Positions 2,545 through 63,997 of a DNA stretch of 64,000 nucleotides are shown here, in pieces. The number at the start of each line of letters is the position of its first letter. Position 1 is the stretch's first letter. Source of the DNA: Clostridiaceae bacterium (GTDB lineage Bacteria > Bacillota > Clostridia > Saccharofermentanales > DTU023). A model generated the notes under the pieces. It was not told the DNA's origin. It searched no databases and saw only the letters and a list, made by a program, of their open reading frames with translations. A program made the position numbers and the translations under genes. Location of the stretch: contig DUOO01000026.1 of assembly GCA_012838795.1 (NCBI GenBank), positions 1 through 64,000 on the forward strand, read 5' to 3'.

Positions 2545-2650
2545 TTCCATCAATTGTGACAAATTAAGATTTCATTAACTGCCGGTATTTTTCTTAACTG
2601 CCGGCAGTTAAACATCAACTATAAATTTTATTGTATTAAAGGAAAATCAC

Positions 2651-3280
2651 ATGAGCGTTAATAAAGAAACTCTATTGAACATTATTAAATGTATGCAAAA
2701 AAACATTACCGAAAACAGGGAATATCTTTCCGATTTAGATCGTGAAATCGGTGACGGTGACCATGGAATCAATATGGATCGCGGCTTTCAGGAAGTAATG
2801 AAAAAAATGGATGAAATGGAAAATCAGGATTTGGCAGGAATCTTGCGAACCACAGGCATGACTCTGGCTTTCAAGGTCGGTGGTGCATCAGGTCCCTTAT
2901 ATGGTACAGCTTTTATGAAAGCAAGCGATGTACTTAAAGGTAAAGAAGAAATTGTAATTGCAGATTTACCTGCTCTTTTAGAAGCCGGAATCGGCGGAAT
3001 CCAAATGCGAGGCAAAGCCGAACAGTATGAAAAAACTATGTTGGATGCTCTTATTCCTGCAAAAAATGCTTTGGAAGAAGCTTTAGCCAATGGCAGCAGT
3101 TCAGAGGAAGCAATTAAAGCAATGCTTGATGCCTGTGAAGCAGGAACTGAATATACAAAAACAATAAAAGCAACTAAAGGCAGAGCAAGTTATATCGGCG
3201 AGCGGAGTATCGGTCACATGGATCCCGGTGCTGCTTCATCATTGGTTCTGTTGCGATCAATTGCCGAAGTCATAAAATAG
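2651..3280 (+). CDS. dhaL: Dihydroxyacetone kinase ADP-binding subunit DhaL
   Basis: LDREIGDGDHGINMDRGF motif and RASYIGERSIGHMDPGAAS; operon position. Confidence 0.95.
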   Translation: MSVNKETLLNIIKCMQKNITENREYLSDLDREIGDGDHGINMDRGFQEVMKKMDEMENQDLAGILRTTGMTLAFKVGGASGPLYGTAFMKASDVLKGKEEIVIADLPALLEAGIGGIQMRGKAEQYEKTMLDALIPAKNALEEALANGSSSEEAIKAMLDACEAGTEYTKTIKATKGRASYIGERSIGHMDPGAASSLVLLRSIAEVIK

Positions 3281-14135: not shown

Positions 14136-14185
14136 ACTAATTGTTGACTGCCAAGTAAACTACTGACTACTGAGCATCTTGCCAG

Positions 14186-16610: not shown

Positions 16611-16634
16611 ACTTTTAGTGAAGTTCTTCACCAA
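16609..16634. repeat. Palindrome R1 (9-2-9)
   Basis: aaacttttagtgaag-tt-cttcaccaa; same core as R2-R4, one mismatch in right arm. Confidence 0.75.
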
Positions 16635-16655
16635 TTTTTGTTAACCGGGAATCTG

Positions 16656-16683
16656 AAACTTTTAGTGAAGCTCTTCACTAAAA
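16656..16683. repeat. Palindrome R2 (perfect 11-2-11)
   Basis: ttttagtgaag-ct-cttcactaaaa; shares AAACTTTTAGTGAAGYTCTTCAC with R1 as a direct repeat 47 bp away. Confidence 0.85.
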
Positions 16684-16803: not shown

Positions 16804-17412
16804 ATGAAATATGGTTATGCCAGAGTAAGCACAAAAGGACAAGCAGCTGATGGAAATAGTCTCGAAAATCAAATAGAACTTCTAGAAAAAGCCGGAGCTG
16901 AAATAATATATAAAGATGTTTTCTCCGGAACTAAACTCGATAGACCGGAATTAAATAAATTGCTTAAAATCCTAAAACCTGATGATACAATTATCATCAC
17001 AAAACTGGATAGGTTTGCCAGGAGCATTGGACAAGCTAGTGAATTAATTACTAATCTTATTGATAACGGTATTAAGGTTGAAGTTCTTAATTTAGGAGTT
17101 TTAGATAACAGCTCGGTAAGCACACTATTTAGAAATATGCTTCTTGCTTTCGCTCAATTTGAAAGAGATATGATTGTTGAAAGAACTCAGGAAGGAAAAG
17201 CGGTTGCTAGAAGAAATCCTAATTATCGAGAAGGCAGAAAAAAGAAATATACTGATGAACAAATTAAACTTGCCTTAAAACTACTCGAAACATACTCTTA
17301 TTCACAAGTTACTGAAATGACAGGGATCAGTAAAAGCACTTTGATTAGAGCTAAAAAAGACATTAAACGAGCTTATGAACGGAAAACGCGTTCCCAGAAG
17401 TCCAGTAGTTGA
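16804..17412 (+). CDS. Small serine recombinase / resolvase
   Basis: [11 protein letters not shown] catalytic motif, [33 protein letters not shown]-terminal HTH; 202 aa. Confidence 0.95.
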
Positions 17413-17463: not shown

Positions 17464-19215
17464 TCAATTATTAATAAAATCATAAAAATTATAAATATTT
17501 TCTTTTCCAAAAATATTTTCTAAATATGTACAGAAGTGCTCATTAACAGGTATTGTGATAAATATTGCTAATCGTTTTTTAGCTCTTGAACAACCAACAT
17601 AAAAAAGATTTCTATTTCTTATATATGCTTTTAAATCCTTTTCAATTAAATATTTTTTGTTTTTGTATAATATATCTTCGAAACGATAATTGTTCCACCC
17701 TCTACCCATCACCATAATAACATTGTCAAATTCTGTACCTTTAACACCATGATTTGTTGCATATAAAGAATTCTCATTGAAAAACTTTAGTGCTTTTACA
17801 ACTTCTTTATATTTTATAGAATAAAGATCAACAGGTTTTGTAATAACTTCTTTAGAAACGCCATCAATTAATATATCAGTGTTCTCTTTTTTATAGTCAT
17901 CTATCAATAGACTTATGTTTTCAGGAATCGGAATAAGTTTACTGTCTTTTATACATTTTAAAACATCATATATCGTACTATTTCTAGCCTTTTCTAAAGA
18001 CAAGAAAAATTTTTTCCATATCGTCTTTTTGCTTCTAGAGGTTAGTGGAGGACGTCTTATCCTTAAGGTATCATATAATAAAGCAGTATTATTTTCTTTT
18101 AAGGATCTATAAACAGGTTCAACATAGTTGTTGAAAAATAATAGATGAGGATCTGTCATTTCCTTCAAGCCATCATCTAATATTTCTAAAAGATTAGAAT
18201 ATCCTTGTTGCTTAGATAGCAATTTGTGAGTTAACATAAACACTTTACGAATTTCTCCATTATCATTAGACCACCCCATACTTTCTAGTTTAATGATTAC
18301 TTTGTTAATATATTCATTCAGGATTTTTTCTGGTAATTCGCCTTTGTAATACCCTGAGTTTTCTCTAATACCTCTATAATCATTAGTTAGTATGACTATA
18401 ACTTTTCCATTGTTATCATCTATGGCAGAAATTTGAGTCAAATTCGGCCTGATTTTATTAAGGACATCAACTATTATTTCTTGGGATCTAAAATTTGATT
18501 TCTTTTTTATAAGAATAATGTTATCACTCACTATTTCACCACATACTTGACCTAAACTGTAAATGGTCTGCCAAGAATCTCCAAATAATCCAATTTGTGG
18601 TCCTTCAGTTCTTTCTATAAAATAATTTAAGAATTGGTCCATAATGCTTTTAGAAGAGTCTTGATATTCATCAATAAGTATCAATGGGTATCTGTTTGAT
18701 ATTAAAAATCTAAACTTTTTATTATCCAAAAACAAGGAAAATAATGTGATCACATCATCATGGCTTAAATACAATATTGAGCTCTCAATGTACCTTACAC
18801 CCAAGGTATAATTAACATTATTGATAGAATTAATTTCTTCTTCATTGTACTTCTTTGACAAATCTATATGAGATAAAGATTTAATCAAATCCTTTTGAAA
18901 ATCTTTAATTAAGTCCCAAGCAAAACTATGAATAGTTGATGGAACAATAGAACTATTTGCAGATAATCTATTCGCAATCTCTTCAACTGCAACATTTGTA
19001 TAAGTTATACAAGCCACTGATTTTCCTGTTATTTTTAGATAGTCACTTCTATTCTCTTCAATCCATGAGAGAACCTTTAACAAAGAATATGTCTTTCCGG
19101 TTCCAGCACCTGCTTCCACACAAAAGTTTTTTCCGGATTTTAATACTGAAATTATATTATCATCTATTTCATCAGCAACTTTTTTTGCTTTTTCATACTT
19201 AGTTGTTGCTCCCAT
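17464..19215 (-). CDS. UvrD/Rep-like superfamily 1 helicase (GajB-like)
   Basis: VEAGAGTGKTYSLLK (Walker A), ILIDEYQDSS (Walker B), LFGDSWQTIYSL, NFRS, HGVKGTEFDNVI (motif V), FYVGCSRAKKRL (motif VI); directly downstream of an OLD-type ATPase/TOPRIM gene. Confidence 0.9.
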   Translation of the reverse strand: MGATTKYEKAKKVADEIDDNIISVLKSGKNFCVEAGAGTGKTYSLLKVLSWIEENRSDYLKITGKSVACITYTNVAVEEIANRLSANSSIVPSTIHSFAWDLIKDFQKDLIKSLSHIDLSKKYNEEEINSINNVNYTLGVRYIESSILYLSHDDVITLFSLFLDNKKFRFLISNRYPLILIDEYQDSSKSIMDQFLNYFIERTEGPQIGLFGDSWQTIYSLGQVCGEIVSDNIILIKKKSNFRSQEIIVDVLNKIRPNLTQISAIDDNNGKVIVILTNDYRGIRENSGYYKGELPEKILNEYINKVIIKLESMGWSNDNGEIRKVFMLTHKLLSKQQGYSNLLEILDDGLKEMTDPHLLFFNNYVEPVYRSLKENNTALLYDTLRIRRPPLTSRSKKTIWKKFFLSLEKARNSTIYDVLKCIKDSKLIPIPENISLLIDDYKKENTDILIDGVSKEVITKPVDLYSIKYKEVVKALKFFNENSLYATNHGVKGTEFDNVIMVMGRGWNNYRFEDILYKNKKYLIEKDLKAYIRNRNLFYVGCSRAKKRLAIFITIPVNEHFCTYLENIFGKENIYNFYDFINN

Positions 19216-19255
19216 ATATATTCTCCAAATACACTTTTTCCATACACTAAAGATC

Positions 19256-21250
19256 TTACTTTTGAGAACTAAGCCACACTAAGCCTGTCTCAATATAGGA
19301 AGGGATGTTATAGTTCCTATAATTCTCGTCAACCAACATCCGAATAGCAAAATCTGTTTTACTTAACTTGCTTGGATCATATTCATGACTTGCTTCTTCA
19401 TCGTTAATATCGTATATATTCCTATTTACATTTAAAATAGCTTCTTCAAAACTACGAGGAAACATATTATTTTCTTTTCCTTGATAGGTTAATTTGATTT
19501 TATTATCAATTAATAATTCTTTTGTTTCAGCCATTTCAAGAATTTTTTCAATAGATACTTTATTTTCAGGTATTTCGTAAACAGATCGACACCATCTATT
19601 TATTGTTCCATTCGAGCTTCTTACGGATTCTTCTTTTCGACAAGCTTTTCCTTCAGAATTTACATAATCAATATCAGTTATTACTAAAGTCGGTATTTCT
19701 AAAAAATTCAAAAAATCAAAAAATCTAAAAGCGTATGTTCCTCCAACTTCAATTATTGTATAATATTGTGATTGCAAAGATGGCCTCTGTTGATTAAATA
19801 AACCTTTTTGATAACATTTATTAATCATATCAGCAATAAGCAGCCTTTCTGAAGCTCCCTCTACCAAGATTGCTTTATCACAAAAATACAAATCACAATG
19901 ACTGAGATTTATATATTTTTGTAGAAAATCTATGTTTTCCCTTCTTTTGTCTTCATTACTTATGGCTTCATCTTGCTTAAAATCTACAAGATTTTTACAC
20001 TTAATATTATTTAAATGTTTCCTAAAATATCTAACTTGTTCAAAAGGTACTGCATTCGCAATGTGTGATGAATGTGTCGTTACTATTGTTTGTATTGAAT
20101 GGCTTGTATTATCTTTAAGAAAATTCTCTAGGTATGAAATAAATGTTGTTTGAAGCTGTGGATGCATATGAGCTTCTGGTTCTTCTATAAATAATATAGG
20201 AATTCTTGTTTCATCATTATTCAAGCTTCTAATATAGTCTTGTAAAATTAGTGAAATCTTAATTAAATTTTTATATCCCAATCCATTATGTGTTCCAGGT
20301 AAAGCTTCTAAATTATCATGACTAACATAGGTCAATTCAGTACCGGAAATAATGCTATTTTCAATATCTAAATCGGTATTAGCCTTTAATTTTAAGTCCT
20401 CACCTGAAGGATAGCCAAATTGCAGCATAGATTCTACTATATCATTCATATGATTGCTTATATTATCTTGTAAGTCATACTTTGTTGTGCTAATAACTTT
20501 TTTTAACCCTCTTATTGCAGGCTGTATCTCCATTTTTGCTTTCGAAAGTTCAGTATTAAATAAAGAACTTAATACTGATGCAAGAGGATTCTCTTGATGT
20601 TCATTCTCTTGTGTTTCCCCTAAGTTTCTTTCAGCACTAATTATCCTTAAAGCAAACAATCCCTTAACATCTTCAATATTTCTTAATTGAGTGTCATTCA
20701 AATCTGTCGGATTAAGAGCATATACTTTTAACTCAAAAAAAAGATGAAAGTTTTCTTTTACCAACTGCTGTATAACCAAGAAACAATCAGTGTTTACAAT
20801 TAATTCTTCATATTGTCCTTTTAATTCTTCTAATATGACTTCTAGATTTGTTGATATTTCATAAGAGCATTTAATCTTTGCTAATGAAATATTTTCATCC
20901 AAATCGATAATGAAATTTGATAATCTTCCCAGTGATTCGTCTTCTTCAACATTTCCATAATCTACATCTATTATAAAACTTGTTATGTCAATATTTTGGT
21001 ATAAATCCTTAATGTTCGTCTCACCTAAAAAATATCGTTCTACTTGTTTGTATAAAACTACTCTACAACTCAGTGGATAGTCTTCAAATCTCAATCGTTT
21101 TGTGCCATTTGCTATTAAACTAAATGCATTCATTACCGAGGTTTTACCAGTGTTATTTCTACCAACAAATAATGTTTTAGTAGAAGTCAGTGAAATTTTT
21201 GAATTTTTTAAAAGTCTAAAATTTCTAATCTCTATTTTTTCAATATGCAT
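19256..21250 (-). CDS. OLD-family ATP-dependent endonuclease, AAA ATPase + TOPRIM (GajA-like)
   Basis: IRNFRLLKNSKISL, Walker A VGRNNTGKTS, FIEEPEAHMHPQ, VTTHSSHIAN, TOPRIM ILVEGASERLLIADMI and VITDIDYVNSEGK. Start at MHIEK (21250) preferred: ggagg 7 nt upstream; ORF open to 21265. Confidence 0.92.
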   Translation of the reverse strand: MHIEKIEIRNFRLLKNSKISLTSTKTLFVGRNNTGKTSVMNAFSLIANGTKRLRFEDYPLSCRVVLYKQVERYFLGETNIKDLYQNIDITSFIIDVDYGNVEEDESLGRLSNFIIDLDENISLAKIKCSYEISTNLEVILEELKGQYEELIVNTDCFLVIQQLVKENFHLFFELKVYALNPTDLNDTQLRNIEDVKGLFALRIISAERNLGETQENEHQENPLASVLSSLFNTELSKAKMEIQPAIRGLKKVISTTKYDLQDNISNHMNDIVESMLQFGYPSGEDLKLKANTDLDIENSIISGTELTYVSHDNLEALPGTHNGLGYKNLIKISLILQDYIRSLNNDETRIPILFIEEPEAHMHPQLQTTFISYLENFLKDNTSHSIQTIVTTHSSHIANAVPFEQVRYFRKHLNNIKCKNLVDFKQDEAISNEDKRRENIDFLQKYINLSHCDLYFCDKAILVEGASERLLIADMINKCYQKGLFNQQRPSLQSQYYTIIEVGGTYAFRFFDFLNFLEIPTLVITDIDYVNSEGKACRKEESVRSSNGTINRWCRSVYEIPENKVSIEKILEMAETKELLIDNKIKLTYQGKENNMFPRSFEEAILNVNRNIYDINDEEASHEYDPSKLSKTDFAIRMLVDENYRNYNIPSYIETGLVWLSSQK

Positions 21251-21283
21251 TTTTAGCCTCCACATAAAATGGACGATTTGAAA

Positions 21284-24046
21284 TCATATGTTCTGTCTCA
21301 TTTTATGCATAGATAAGAAGGATTTCTTGATTTCAGTATATATATCGGACAAGCCATAACATTTTAGGACATATTTATCGAATTTTGCTCGATCTTCCAT
21401 TGATAATTCCTCTTCATAATCTAAAATATCTCTTTCTAATATAGGAAGAAATAGTCTTTTTATATTGTTTTTTTGACTTTCAGATAAACATTTTGGATTT
21501 AATAAGAACATAGAGGCTATACTTGTTTTATTAATATCTAACACTCCTAATCCTCTGCCAAAACCTACTGCTTCTATATAGTACATACTAAAAACAGAAT
21601 TAAGCAAAGCATGAAGAAGGAATTTATCACTTGTATTTTCTTTTAATTTCAATCCAATTAGTCTCTGATTGATAAAGCTTCTGTTTGTAAATTTCCCGAA
21701 AAAGAATCTTTTGTCCGGATTCATCATGGTAAAAAAATCAGCCGTTTCAGAGGTTTTAATTTCATACCAGTACATATTATTACGAGACAATACCTCTGGT
21801 AGAGGTTTACCTATACCGTTTACTTCATTTTCAAATTTTTCAATCCAGCTTAAAGCTCCATGATGTCCGCTTTCTCTTAATTCTAATTTGCTTTTTGAGC
21901 AACAAAACACATCAGAGTTAGCCTCCGTCTCAAGACGATTTACATTTTTAGCATTTCTTAAAACCTTTCTTATATATTCATCTTCTATAGAATGATTGCC
22001 TTCTGGATAAAACAGTGGATCCCAACCTCTACGGCTACCCCTTAATACCTCAAATACATCTTGAATTGGAACAACTTTATCTTCAGATGCAATTTTCCCT
22101 TTTGTCTTTAATAACCATCTCGCATCATGGAAAAGCGAATTAATCGAGACGTTATAATTAAGAATTTCTATTTGTTCTTCAGGAGTATATGTAACTCTTG
22201 AAGATATCTCTGGTTCAGGATTGATATCTAATAAAGAACTTTGAATTAGATTATTTTTATATGTTATGTTTTCACTGAATTCCGCTAATTGTTTTCTCCA
22301 AATAAAGAAACTTATATTATCTATATTGGGTTGACCTATCTCCTTCTTTTCTAATATTAAAATTATTGTAATCACATCAGCATTATTAAACCACTTTTTA
22401 TTTCCACTAATATGCAGTTGTCTTATATAAAAGTATTTGCTCAATGCTTCATAGAATAGTTTGCCACTATCAGTACCTAGCCACGAATTAGATGTAATAA
22501 CACCCATTCTTCCTTTTATGTTTAATAAATCATATAAAGCAAATGGTATATATGTGTAAATATCTCCTCTCTTACTTAATGTAATTCGAGTCTCTACTTT
22601 TACTTTCTCTATTATTTCCTCAATAATTTCTTTGTCTTCATTTTCTAGTCTCTCAAAAGCAATGAATGGTAAATTAGAACATATTGTTTCAATTTTTGGA
22701 AGATTGTATTCCAAGACTTCTCCATCTTCCGGGTTAATGATACTAATTTTTTTACCATATTTTAAAGCCAAAACATTATCATTAAAAACAAGTACGGGCT
22801 TGTTAATGGTTTCAATAGAAGACATCGTTATTGTTGCTAACTGCAAAGGAAAATTGTCCTTGTCAGAAGCCCATGTTGTACTTAGTGCTTTTTCCATCCC
22901 AATTTTGTCTTTTTTTAAATTAAGTCCAGCTTTAGCAATTGTACCAGTTCCACAACAGCAATCCATAAATGGCTTTTCTACATTTAGCATGGTAAGATTA
23001 CATAATATTTCTGATAATATTTCAGGTGTTGTATATTGCCCTTTTATTAATCGCTTGGATGAAGCTACTGATTGTTCTAGAATATCTTGAATATTCTGTT
23101 GATCTATTATCTCGATATTCATTGACTTTAACAATAAATTGTATTCTAAAATCTCACTCCATGTCTCATTATCAATCAACTCGTTATACGCAATTTTGCA
23201 GAAAATGGCATAGAAATCACATTCGTTTGTGATTTTATCGAATATTTTTATGATATCTTCTATTGTTTCATCATCCGAAATTATATCAACATCTCTTGCT
23301 TGAAGCTGATAGCTTTTAATCAAATGAGCAAACAAAAACTTATTTAACCAATTCAAAATAATCATCTTGGCGTATGCTATGAAGGGATCTATTTCATCGT
23401 TCAAATATTCTGATTGGGCAATCTCCCACCATTGTTTAATATATGCTTCAACGACTCTATTAACATTCGATGCCTCTTTTAGTTTTCGCCCGACATTCTC
23501 TTTATTATTTTCTATTATATTTGCCATTAACGAATCCGTTACGACTCTATCAATTCTTTGACTAATGATTTCACCAGTAGTTAAAAACTCATCTACTTGT
23601 AAAACTACTTTTTCTAGTAGTTTTTTCCAATCATCTTGGTACATAGCAACATCAACACGATTTCTTATATGACTGGTCTCATTCCAAGATTTTTTCACAG
23701 TCCATTTCTCACCATCAAAAATATATAAAACAACTGATGTAAAGTTCCATATTATTGTGCTATTAAGACCCAGATTATTAGCTTTTCTCTGCGCATCATT
23801 TACAAATTCACTATCGGTGATTAAAGTATCTGGCATTTTTAATTCCCAACCCTGTAAGAATTCTATTTGATCAGTGTCTCCAAATAAAATTACATCAGGA
23901 AACATTCGTTGCTTACCAGTTAAAATTGTTGATTCTCCGCCCGCTTTTTTTATTTTTAAGTTATGGATATTTGCTAACTGATTTATACTAGATATTAAAT
24001 CAATAGCCCAACTTCTCTCATTAGGATTTATTGTTATATTATTCAT
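21284..24046 (-). CDS. Restriction-modification fusion: PD-(D/E)XK nuclease-like N-terminus + gamma-class N6-DNA methyltransferase
   Basis: FPDVILFGD...QGWELKMP (PD-(D/E)XK pattern); DCCCGTGTIAKAG (motif I) then SNLPF (variant motif IV); C-terminal target-recognition-like region; 920 aa. Overlaps preceding methyltransferase by 8 nt. Confidence 0.85.
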   Translation of the reverse strand: MNNITINPNERSWAIDLISSINQLANIHNLKIKKAGGESTILTGKQRMFPDVILFGDTDQIEFLQGWELKMPDTLITDSEFVNDAQRKANNLGLNSTIIWNFTSVVLYIFDGEKWTVKKSWNETSHIRNRVDVAMYQDDWKKLLEKVVLQVDEFLTTGEIISQRIDRVVTDSLMANIIENNKENVGRKLKEASNVNRVVEAYIKQWWEIAQSEYLNDEIDPFIAYAKMIILNWLNKFLFAHLIKSYQLQARDVDIISDDETIEDIIKIFDKITNECDFYAIFCKIAYNELIDNETWSEILEYNLLLKSMNIEIIDQQNIQDILEQSVASSKRLIKGQYTTPEILSEILCNLTMLNVEKPFMDCCCGTGTIAKAGLNLKKDKIGMEKALSTTWASDKDNFPLQLATITMSSIETINKPVLVFNDNVLALKYGKKISIINPEDGEVLEYNLPKIETICSNLPFIAFERLENEDKEIIEEIIEKVKVETRITLSKRGDIYTYIPFALYDLLNIKGRMGVITSNSWLGTDSGKLFYEALSKYFYIRQLHISGNKKWFNNADVITIILILEKKEIGQPNIDNISFFIWRKQLAEFSENITYKNNLIQSSLLDINPEPEISSRVTYTPEEQIEILNYNVSINSLFHDARWLLKTKGKIASEDKVVPIQDVFEVLRGSRRGWDPLFYPEGNHSIEDEYIRKVLRNAKNVNRLETEANSDVFCCSKSKLELRESGHHGALSWIEKFENEVNGIGKPLPEVLSRNNMYWYEIKTSETADFFTMMNPDKRFFFGKFTNRSFINQRLIGLKLKENTSDKFLLHALLNSVFSMYYIEAVGFGRGLGVLDINKTSIASMFLLNPKCLSESQKNNIKRLFLPILERDILDYEEELSMEDRAKFDKYVLKCYGLSDIYTEIKKSFLSMHKMRQNI

Positions 24047-24884
24047 TATTAATAAACTCCTTTATTAAGTTAGTTCTTTCAATGAATTTCTTTTTAAGTG
24101 ACGGTAAATTATACCAAGATCTTTGAAGCCTTTTGCTTGCAACCTTGATTAAATTATATTTTTGTTTTTTAAATTGATCAGTATCTTCATTTTTTTCAAT
24201 ACCAACAAAATTTCGTCCTTCTTCAAGCGCAGCTACTAAAAAACTACCACTACCAAATGTATTATCTAATATTAAATCTCCTTCATTTGTATAAGTTCTT
24301 ACGAAATATCTTCCCAAATCTACAGGTTTCTGAGTTGGATGATAAACTTTACCCTCATTTTCTGCTGTTTTAAAATAAATTAAATCCACAGGATATCTTT
24401 CACCATCACTCTTTACTCGTACAGGATTAAAGTCTCCATAAGAACCGCTTAATTGGTCTTTGCGTATTCCTTTATCATAAGATTCGCCATTCATCATTTG
24501 AGGATTGTAAACAGGTTGTTTTTTATAGAAAACACATATCTCCTCATATTTTCTCAGAGGCTGTAACCTAGAATTCAAAAAATTGGTAGCTTTTGACTTT
24601 ATCCAAATCCACTTATATTTAAATTCATCAATATTGCTTAACATAAGTCTGGCAGTAAATAACCCATGTGATGTTAAAACAATAGCCCCATTATCTTTAA
24701 CAATCCTTCTATATTCATTCCATAGTTCGTCTAAAGGAATTATTGAATCCCATTTATTTTGTGTTGTTCCATACGGTAAATCACATAAAACCATATCAAT
24801 GGAATTATCAGGAAAGTTCCTCATTACATCTATACAATCTCCTTCAAATAATCTATTGGTAATATCAGTTTTTGATAATTGCAT
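24039..24884 (-). CDS. Beta-class site-specific DNA methyltransferase
   Basis: DMVLCDLPYGTTQNKWD (motif IV) precedes LDNTFGSGSFLVAALEEGRNFVGIE (motif I). Confidence 0.92.
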   Translation of the reverse strand: MQLSKTDITNRLFEGDCIDVMRNFPDNSIDMVLCDLPYGTTQNKWDSIIPLDELWNEYRRIVKDNGAIVLTSHGLFTARLMLSNIDEFKYKWIWIKSKATNFLNSRLQPLRKYEEICVFYKKQPVYNPQMMNGESYDKGIRKDQLSGSYGDFNPVRVKSDGERYPVDLIYFKTAENEGKVYHPTQKPVDLGRYFVRTYTNEGDLILDNTFGSGSFLVAALEEGRNFVGIEKNEDTDQFKKQKYNLIKVASKRLQRSWYNLPSLKKKFIERTNLIKEFINNE

Positions 24885-24941
24885 TTTCTCTCATATCCCC
24901 TCTATAAATAATTCACACATACCTTAATAAAATACTCATAT

Positions 24942-25157
24942 TTATTTTTTCCCTCGTTCCATAATTTCTGAAATATCACAATCCAAAACATCACATATTC
25001 GTAGCAAAGTTTCAGTTGTAACATTTTCCGAGTTTTTTATTTTATAAAAAGTGCTTCTACTTATATCTGCACGTTCCATTAAATCTTTATTGCTCATATC
25101 TTCATCAATAAGCTTTTTTAACAATTTTTTATAAGAAAAATAACTATTTGTGGACAT
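24942..25157 (-). CDS. XRE/Cro-C1-type HTH regulator
   Basis: 71 aa; NKDLMERADISRSTFYKIKNSENVTTETLLRICDVLDCDISEIME typical HTH; first gene of the operon. Confidence 0.9.
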   Translation of the reverse strand: MSTNSYFSYKKLLKKLIDEDMSNKDLMERADISRSTFYKIKNSENVTTETLLRICDVLDCDISEIMERGKK

Positions 25158-25418: not shown

Positions 25419-25608
25419 GTAGGTTTTATATTCTTTATCTTGACAAAATTTCTTATATGACAAGCCCTTTCAATTGCTAGTGTAATATAGAAAAGCAATC
25501 GAATTGGACAATATATAAGTAATTTCTATAAATAGTATTTAAATATGAAATAGAAAAAAGTTCTGATAGTATATTCAGTAATCACAAGTTAAAAACAAAT
25601 GTTTATAC

Positions 25609-25626
25609 TAGTGAAGCACTTCATTA
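25609..25626. repeat. Palindrome R3
   Basis: tagtgaag-ca-cttcatta; same core as R1/R2/R4, one arm mismatch. Confidence 0.6.
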
Positions 25627-25672
25627 ATTTGATTATTCCCCCAGTGTTAGTCAAATATGAAAGGATATTAAT

Positions 25673-25912
25673 ATGGAGAAAAAAGATTTTTCGTTAGAAG
25701 ATATTGACTATATGAAAAAAGCCGTAGAATTTGTGTTGAAAGAATATGCGTCTCCCGGTAAAAAAAGAATTGAAGTAGCCCAAGCAACAGGATTAGATTC
25801 AAGTGTTGTTGGAAAGTATAATCGCGGAGTATTAGCTTACGGAAATATGCGAGCAAGTAATTTTTTAAAAGTGTTTGAATTTTATATCAACAATTTTCAA
25901 AACAACTCTTGA
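25673..25912 (+). CDS. Small protein, possible HTH DNA-binding protein
   Basis: 79 aa; RIEVAQATGLDSSVVGKYNRGV resembles a helix-turn-helix; RBS gaaagga upstream; divergent from the defence operon. Confidence 0.6.
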   Translation: MEKKDFSLEDIDYMKKAVEFVLKEYASPGKKRIEVAQATGLDSSVVGKYNRGVLAYGNMRASNFLKVFEFYINNFQNNS

Positions 25913-26322: not shown

Positions 26323-26342
26323 TTAGTGAAGAGCTTCACTAA
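26323..26342. repeat. Palindrome R4 (perfect 9-2-9)
   Basis: ttagtgaag-ag-cttcactaa; reverse-complement orientation of R2 core (centre AG versus CT). Confidence 0.8.
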
Positions 26343-26606: not shown

Positions 26607-26698
26607 TGGCGGAGAGTGGGGGATTTGAACCCCCGTTACGCTATTAACGTAAACACGATTTCCAATCGTGCGCCTTCAGCCAGCTCGGCCAACTCTCC
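26607..26698 (-). tRNA. tRNA-Ser(GGA)
   Basis: Acceptor GGAGAGU/ACUCUCC, long variable arm, anticodon loop ...TTGGAAA..., encoded CCA. Confidence 0.93.
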
Positions 26699-63178: not shown

Positions 63179-63997
63179 TTATTCAGCATTTTTATTTTCT
63201 TTTTTCTCTTCAATCTTGGCAGTTTTCTGCTCTGCAAAAGAATTTCTTTCCCAGAATACTCCATCTACATAACCTTGAATTTCTGTATTGGTGTCAGCTA
63301 TTTCAAGTCTTTGTTCCGCCCATAAACAATATTGTTTGTCTATTTCTATGCCTACATAGTGACGTTTCAATTTTTTCGCGACGACACTTGTAGTTCCGGA
63401 GCCTAAAAAAGGATCAAGAATAATATCATTTTCATTTGAGCTGGCCAAAATCATTTTCGCGATTAATTTTTCAGATTTTTGAGTCGGATGAGCGGTGTTT
63501 TCCGGCATTGACCAAAAGGGAATCGTAATATCATCCCAAAAATTCGAGGGATGTGTATCTCTGAAATTGCCATTTTCAGTTTCTTGCCAATCTTTGGGTT
63601 TACCATCGATGCGATATGGTGCGATAACTCTTTTACGTGTTTTTACTGCATTCAGATTGAAAGTATATTGATCGCCTTTTGTTGCAAACCATATGTCTTC
63701 CATGCCATTTTTCCAATTTGCTTTTGCACCTCTGCCCTTTTCTCGTTGCCAAGTAATTCGATTCCGGATTTTAAAATAATCATCTAAAACATTTCCGATT
63801 ATAATACCGGATTCCCAATCACAACAAACATAAATGGAGCCGTTTGTTTTTAAAAGGGGAGCAAGCAAAGTGAGCCATTTGTGTGAGTAATTTTCATATT
63901 CTGCTTTCGACTTTTTGGAAAATGTTTTTTTATTGAACATTTTGGTCAAGTTATATGGTGGATCTGCAATGATTAAATCAAAACTTTCTTTTGGCAA
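63179..63997 (-). CDS. Beta-class site-specific DNA methyltransferase, 5' end cut by window edge
   Basis: LIIADPPYNLTK (motif IV) then ILDPFLGSGTTSVVAKKLKRHYVGIE (motif I); likely continues past 64000. Confidence 0.9.
   Translation of the reverse strand: MPKESFDLIIADPPYNLTKMFNKKTFSKKSKAEYENYSHKWLTLLAPLLKTNGSIYVCCDWESGIIIGNVLDDYFKIRNRITWQREKGRGAKANWKNGMEDIWFATKGDQYTFNLNAVKTRKRVIAPYRIDGKPKDWQETENGNFRDTHPSNFWDDITIPFWSMPENTAHPTQKSEKLIAKMILASSNENDIILDPFLGSGTTSVVAKKLKRHYVGIEIDKQYCLWAEQRLEIADTNTEIQGYVDGVFWERNSFAEQKTAKIEEKKENKNAE

Follow-up and report, generated by a model that had tools for sequence, protein, structure and literature searches.

Do the five neighbouring defence genes between positions 25157 and 17464 of this stretch of a Clostridiaceae genome work as one modification-gated system, or are they two systems that share an address? 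The whole stretch analysed, 64,000 nucleotides long, is called the window here. An earlier note on the window, made from its letters, leaned towards the former and named two adjacent independent systems as the alternative. To address the question, the gene content of the locus, its genomic setting and the occurrence of each half in other genomes are considered below.

Organization of the apparent operon

Five intact genes, all on the minus strand, run from 25157 to 17464 and encode an XRE regulator, a beta-class methyltransferase (MTase), a type IIG restriction enzyme-methyltransferase fusion, GajA and GajB. Co-direction and spacing were reproduced as first described: the MTase and IIG reading frames share 8 nt, the IIG stop lies 33 nt from the preferred GajA ATG, and 40 nt separate GajA from GajB; the XRE-MTase spacing is 57 nt. 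PADLOC and Pfam agree with the identities proposed in the earlier note (XRE, beta-MTase, PD-(D/E)XK/gamma-MTase, GajA and GajB), and its choice of GajA start also held, the ATG at 21250 with an RBS-like GGAGG before it appearing better than the opening of the frame at 21265. The GajB ATG is preceded by an RBS-like GGAG, and a plausible ribosome site was found before every downstream gene of the operon. A consensus scan returned no terminators between the five genes, and the sole minus-strand terminator-like site in the operon is a weak one inside the IIG gene. The consensus scan also placed a 10/12 promoter-like site immediately 5' of XRE; since such sites are no commoner here than in shuffled sequence, the scan is compatible with a single transcript but no proof of it. 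The short gaps and shared direction fit a layout in which one transcript would span all five genes. Catalytic motifs were checked in IIG, GajA and GajB and are intact by conservation.

The restriction-modification cassette

The first gene (24942..25157, minus strand) encodes a small XRE/Cro-CI regulator of 71 aa (Pfam HTH_26, 1.7e-17), which is likely an autoregulator of the restriction-modification (RM) cassette. An XRE homologue lies immediately 5' of the MTase gene in at least seven loci (L053-L055, L058, L060, L135 and L136), and in L133 it is also found 5' of the MTase, with pieces of a C5 methylase between. The second gene (24039..24884, minus strand) encodes a beta-class N6/N4 DNA methyltransferase of 281 aa (PF01555, 3.8e-26; PADLOC MTase_II, PDLC03251, 9e-69) with conserved DLPY and FGSGSF motifs and with CcrM and RsrI as solved relatives; it is predicted to be the second methylase of the cassette.

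The third gene (21284..24046, minus strand) encodes the type IIG protein of 920 aa (PADLOC REase_MTase_IIG, PDLC03606, 1.5e-239), in which an N-terminal PD-(D/E)XK nuclease is followed by a gamma N6-adenine methylase and a C-terminal region where target recognition is expected. In an alignment of 32 sequences, the nuclease motif PD(50-51)...E68xK70, that is PD-(16 residues)-ExK, is invariant, and the methylase motifs D362..G366xG368 and NLPF (458-461) are conserved. The AlphaFold model of the protein has a mean pLDDT of 86, and its best fold match in the PDB is BpuSI (3s1s, E 1.6e-24), followed by CamA, M.BseCI, DrdV and MmeI. What marks a type IIG enzyme, a nuclease and a gamma methylase on a single polypeptide, was thus found with intact motifs and a BpuSI/DrdV/MmeI fold. 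The cassette resembles the BpuSI/Eco57I-like type IIG systems with a partner methylase (PDLC03606 group), both in its single-chain PD-(D/E)XK nuclease, gamma methylase and C-terminal region and in its separate methylase gene, whereas it differs from them in the beta class of that partner. Its motif IV also departs from the usual NPPY/F of type IIG enzymes, NLPF being invariant in its group.

The Gabija pair

GajA (19256..21250, minus strand; 664 aa from the preferred start) joins an OLD-type ABC ATPase to a TOPRIM nuclease and is recognized by PADLOC (PDLC00063, 4.5e-175) and by Pfam (AAA_15, PF13175; OLD-like_TOPRIM, PF20469), while a profile search matches the solved GajA structures 8j4t, 8jq9 and 8sm3. 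Walker A/B and the TOPRIM residues E469...D531xD533 are intact and invariant in the alignment. Directly 3' of GajA, across the 40-nt gap, lies the gene for the UvrD-like helicase GajB (17464..19215, minus strand; 583 aa; PDLC00113, 8.9e-184; Pfam UvrD-helicase and UvrD_C), whose helicase motifs are invariant. By sequence, the two are an ordinary Gabija pair: both are full-length, they stand in the canonical order, and the ABC, TOPRIM and helicase motifs are intact. The AriA profile of PARIS (AriA-AriB) also fits the ATPase (1.6e-46), but PARIS was rejected because it needs the ATPase and the TOPRIM nuclease on separate genes, and here one protein combines the two. The GajA lineage of the window has diverged, with 61% identity to L133, and its full-length identity to the remaining GajA proteins sampled is about 30% or lower. 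Compared with known Gabija, the pair differs in its position at the end of a directon of five genes that opens with an RM cassette.

A probable mobile element at a tRNA-Ser gene

Beside the operon, a small serine recombinase of the resolvase/invertase family (16804..17412, plus strand; 202 aa; PF00239, 9.3e-35) is likely part of the mobile element that carries it, and recombinases 33-34% identical adjoin the same RM cassette in the plasmid loci L037 and L038. The palindrome TTAGTGAAGNNCTTCACTAA occurs twice at the left edge of the element (16615..16681) and twice at the right edge (25608-25627 and 26323-26342). Allowing up to 2 mismatches, these four copies, all flanking the operon, are the only ones in the whole 2.09-Mb genome, and the chance expectation within the window is none. 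The 202-aa recombinase may act at this palindrome, which was not found in L133, L102, L143, L194 or L225. On the right, the variable region is bounded by the 3' end (26607) of a tRNA-Ser(GGA) gene (26607..26698, minus strand). In a genome of the same genus (G004), the flanks align up to window position 14152 and from 26607, the exact tRNA-Ser 3' end, and 5.5 kb of other cargo lies between them. A second copy of the tRNA 3' end, as an attachment repeat, was not found in the window. GC content is 0.28-0.31 over 17-26 kb and 0.34-0.41 around it, and no close GajA match was present in 187 other genomes of the order. Together, the low GC, the lack of a close GajA in the order and the tRNA boundary fit an element that was acquired horizontally and sits at a tRNA-Ser hotspot. 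The IIG search of 59 relatives gave one weak match elsewhere only, and such near absence argues against vertical inheritance of the IIG gene.

A hotspot of this kind invites the explanation that the two modules simply piled up there by chance, with neither joint regulation nor joint function, and the different cargo of G004 at the tRNA-Ser boundary speaks in its favour. Against it are the tight co-directional gaps of 33 and 40 nt without a terminator, and further evidence on both sides comes from the distribution of each half.

Neighbours of the restriction cassette

A first genome scan with the single IIG protein as query gave no matches. An alignment-based scan of 85,000 genomes yielded 166 matches, the best 80 of which were read together with 9 loci from IMG/VR and 4 from plasmids; the IIG search of phage records gave no match. 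About 95 IIG cassette loci span Bacillota, Bacteroidota, Pseudomonadota, Patescibacteria and others. Practically all of the ~95 loci that extend far enough have an MTase homologue (58-81% identical) next to the IIG gene; in L094 it is convergent on the other side of that gene. This constancy, with the recurrence of XRE 5' of the MTase, suggests that XRE-methylase-IIG is a complete, self-sufficient cassette.

The gene that follows is far less constant. A locus counted as testable if it extended 1 kb or more beyond the IIG gene and the next gene encoded 100 aa or more; of the 78 such loci, 40 show a gene in the same direction no further than 200 nt downstream of IIG. Besides the window, Gabija directly follows the cassette in two of the 78 (L133 and L102) and is absent from the other 76. 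L133, an IMG/VR contig, keeps the four effector and modifier genes in the same order, with identities of 81% for the methylase, 67% for IIG and 61% for both GajA and GajB; L102, a Clostridiales genome, has the same gene order with gaps of 32 and -16 nt. In other loci the slot is taken by a PrrC/RloC-like AAA_13 protein (L071, L076), Olokun (L074, L081), a SEFIR protein (L136), a GHKL-ATPase protein (L112, L125), SIR2 (L038) or housekeeping genes. The downstream neighbour of the cassette therefore appears to be swappable. Counting PADLOC hits among the first 25 families listed plus single scans, defence genes adjoin the cassette downstream in about 18 of 78 loci and upstream in about 9 of 70; as the upstream share is also substantial, downstream enrichment is not claimed as specific. 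That defence genes are common on either side is also what chance adjacency would predict.

Neighbours of Gabija

From the other side, GajA was searched in two sets of about 400 genomes apiece, drawn from the phylum and class to which the window belongs, and 19 other Bacillota GajA loci were read. The XRE-MTase-IIG cassette was found at none of the 19. In three of them, a different restriction or methylase module lies immediately upstream and co-directional: an Eco57I-type IIG of 1028 aa and an M.Eco57I-like methylase at 38 nt (L143), an N6 methylase, a C5 methylase and an HNH protein (L194), and an N6/N4 methylase (L150). On an Aliarcobacter plasmid (L231), Gabija is followed after 48 nt by a methylase, RhuM and a DEAD helicase, so that RM or methylase modules unrelated to the present cassette abut Gabija in four further loci. 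Toxin-antitoxin modules also stand before GajA, namely a zeta toxin in L144 and AbiEii-type genes in L196, in L195 and L197 (these two by sequence only) and in front of Gabija on a Pontibacter plasmid (L233), a pattern that again favours chance adjacency. Six further plasmid Gabija loci had no tightly spaced restriction neighbour. Elsewhere, GajA-GajB thus stands alone or adjoins other modules.

How often the pairing arose

In a tree of 29 GajA sequences (INDEPENDENCE), the window and L133 form one clade (100/100), and L102 is sister to L150 within a distant clade (100/99). Long branches are flagged in the output of this tree, and the group test is by itself compatible with one origin. The IIG tree is clearer: L102 groups with L136, apart from the window and L133, and its starred branches force two origins. 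Sister IIG genes there carry different cargo, Gabija in L102 and SEFIR in L136, as do L037 and L038. Taken together, the two trees indicate at least two independent assemblies of the IIG-GajA-GajB order, with L102 separate from the window and L133. The latter two share a single assembly, which was retained on distinct carriers while the sequences diverged substantially, the window having a small serine recombinase and palindromes and L133 large serine recombinases (family read from sequence). With the linkage kept in L133 and the order assembled at least twice, chance adjacency is quite unlikely to be the whole account, although much of the adjacency could arise from ordinary clustering in defence islands, without joint function.

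Two stacked modules or one system

The co-occurrence survey that the earlier note had set in advance as its refutation test went against an obligate system, as the halves are not consistently found together. A single integrated system, in which the RM half would sense unmodified DNA for GajA-GajB or methylation would shield the host from GajA, is likewise unlikely. What remains of that proposal is recurrence: L133 keeps the gene order on a different mobile element, the trees have the pairing re-assembled independently in L102, and other RM or methylase modules stand beside Gabija in L143, L194, L150 and L231. Obligate linkage did not stand, with 76 of 78 IIG loci and 19 of 19 GajA loci lacking the partner. 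In addition, published Gabija is described as working alone (PMC8136825, PMC12407980), a domain or recruitment motif common to both halves was not found, and methylation gating of GajA itself is unsupported. Of the two readings in the earlier note, that of adjacent systems is the sounder starting point, and two autonomous systems repeatedly placed in one operon fit better than either extreme.

The locus is therefore best read, with reasonable though not high confidence, as a stack of two anti-phage modules, each autonomous, that share one transcription unit on an acquired element, with Gabija as an end-targeting backup. The XRE, beta methylase and IIG genes would form a complete RM system, in which host sites would be marked by the beta methylase and the IIG methylase domain (presumably each on its own strand of an asymmetric site), DNA left unmarked would be cut by the IIG nuclease and the XRE protein would probably set the timing of the cassette. 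GajA-GajB would act as normal Gabija on linear DNA ends without RecBCD/AddAB activity. Placed one behind the other, the two modules would complement each other. Restriction would then be the first layer, and cut or injected ends left free by AddAB, those made by the IIG enzyme included, may become Gabija substrates; phages that block restriction or AddAB, or shield their ends from AddAB, would meet Gabija. In support of such a division of labour, Gabija was reported to act on linear DNA unengaged by RecBCD (PMC12407980; a preprint, in one host), and the introduction of one paper states that Gabija responds to Ocr, an anti-restriction protein (PMC12255303). An AddA-like nuclease is encoded by the host, with a score of 388 bits, below the curated cut-off.

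Combinations of modification genes with a further effector have been described before. DarTG2 lies inside a type I RM system with the repressor RptR, which likewise has a small regulator in front (PMC12255303), modification genes and an extra effector, and OLD-ABC modules within BREX clusters, which also join modification genes to an additional effector, have been proposed as backups (PMC12839542). In contrast to these cases, the RM part here is a type IIG system, and a complete Gabija follows downstream as the extra module rather than being embedded. The four-gene linkage in L133, kept at 61-81% identity on another element, suggests something firmer than loose stacking. A stronger claim, that RM-Gabija operons are a recurrent functional type in which unmodified ends created or exposed by restriction are processed by GajA-GajB, phages that overcome one layer, for instance through end shielding or inhibitors of restriction, trigger the other, and the cassette is a general platform with exchangeable backup effectors, is tentative and somewhat improbable at present.

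Significance

Both halves are known systems that are usually found apart, and such pairings arose several times. The pairing was not described in the papers found by a literature search; a 2020 classification of ABC ATPases may describe OLD-restriction neighbourhoods, and an earlier account of the pairing is possible. What is surprising is that different restriction modules are repeatedly paired with Gabija in one directon, together with an IIG cassette that swaps effectors. One cassette with interchangeable effectors (Gabija, PrrC-like, Olokun, SEFIR and SIR2) suggests a platform for discovering backup effectors. An operon that sets Gabija behind a methylation-based system, and that was assembled more than once, bears on how Gabija discriminates self from foreign DNA; it offers a natural way to ask whether Gabija is fed by restriction-made ends or serves as a backup once phages block restriction. 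The repeated pairing makes a shared function worth testing.

Sequences around the island

Across the whole genome, the palindrome TTAGTGAAGNNCTTCACTAA has four copies, at window positions 16615-16634, 16662-16681, 25608-25627 and 26323-26342, all of which bracket the island. These palindromes are regarded as candidate recombination sites. Between the XRE gene and the tRNA-Ser gene, a 79-aa ORF without any Pfam match (25673-25909, plus strand) is divergent from the operon. A second DNA methylase gene with a DPPY motif is located at the window end (63179-63997), beside tRNA-Met and tRNA-Leu.

Variation and conservation of the cassette

In several genomes, GajA-GajB is directly preceded by toxin-antitoxin modules, of AbiEii type (L196:7528-8364; L233:3489-4463; and, as judged by sequence, L195 and L197) or with a zeta toxin (L144:9618-10403). 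Two Lactobacillaceae plasmids (L037 and L038) carry nearly identical IIG cassettes, whereas the downstream defence genes differ, being AAA_13 on the opposite strand and SIR2. On the IMG/VR contig L133, the XRE-to-methylase interval (2617-3220) retains remnants of a broken C5-cytosine methylase. In genome G325, an IIG relative is in two pieces (L200:4300-6117 and L201:6504-7598), with the break after roughly residue 570 and some 20 kb between the pieces. Each piece adjoins a 444-aa TnpB-like ORF, and these two ORFs are apparently identical.

Alignments A1 and A2 and tblastn show much stronger conservation of the partner methylase (58-81% identity) than of the IIG protein (mostly 27-49%), which hints at a recognised site that may not vary from phylum to phylum.
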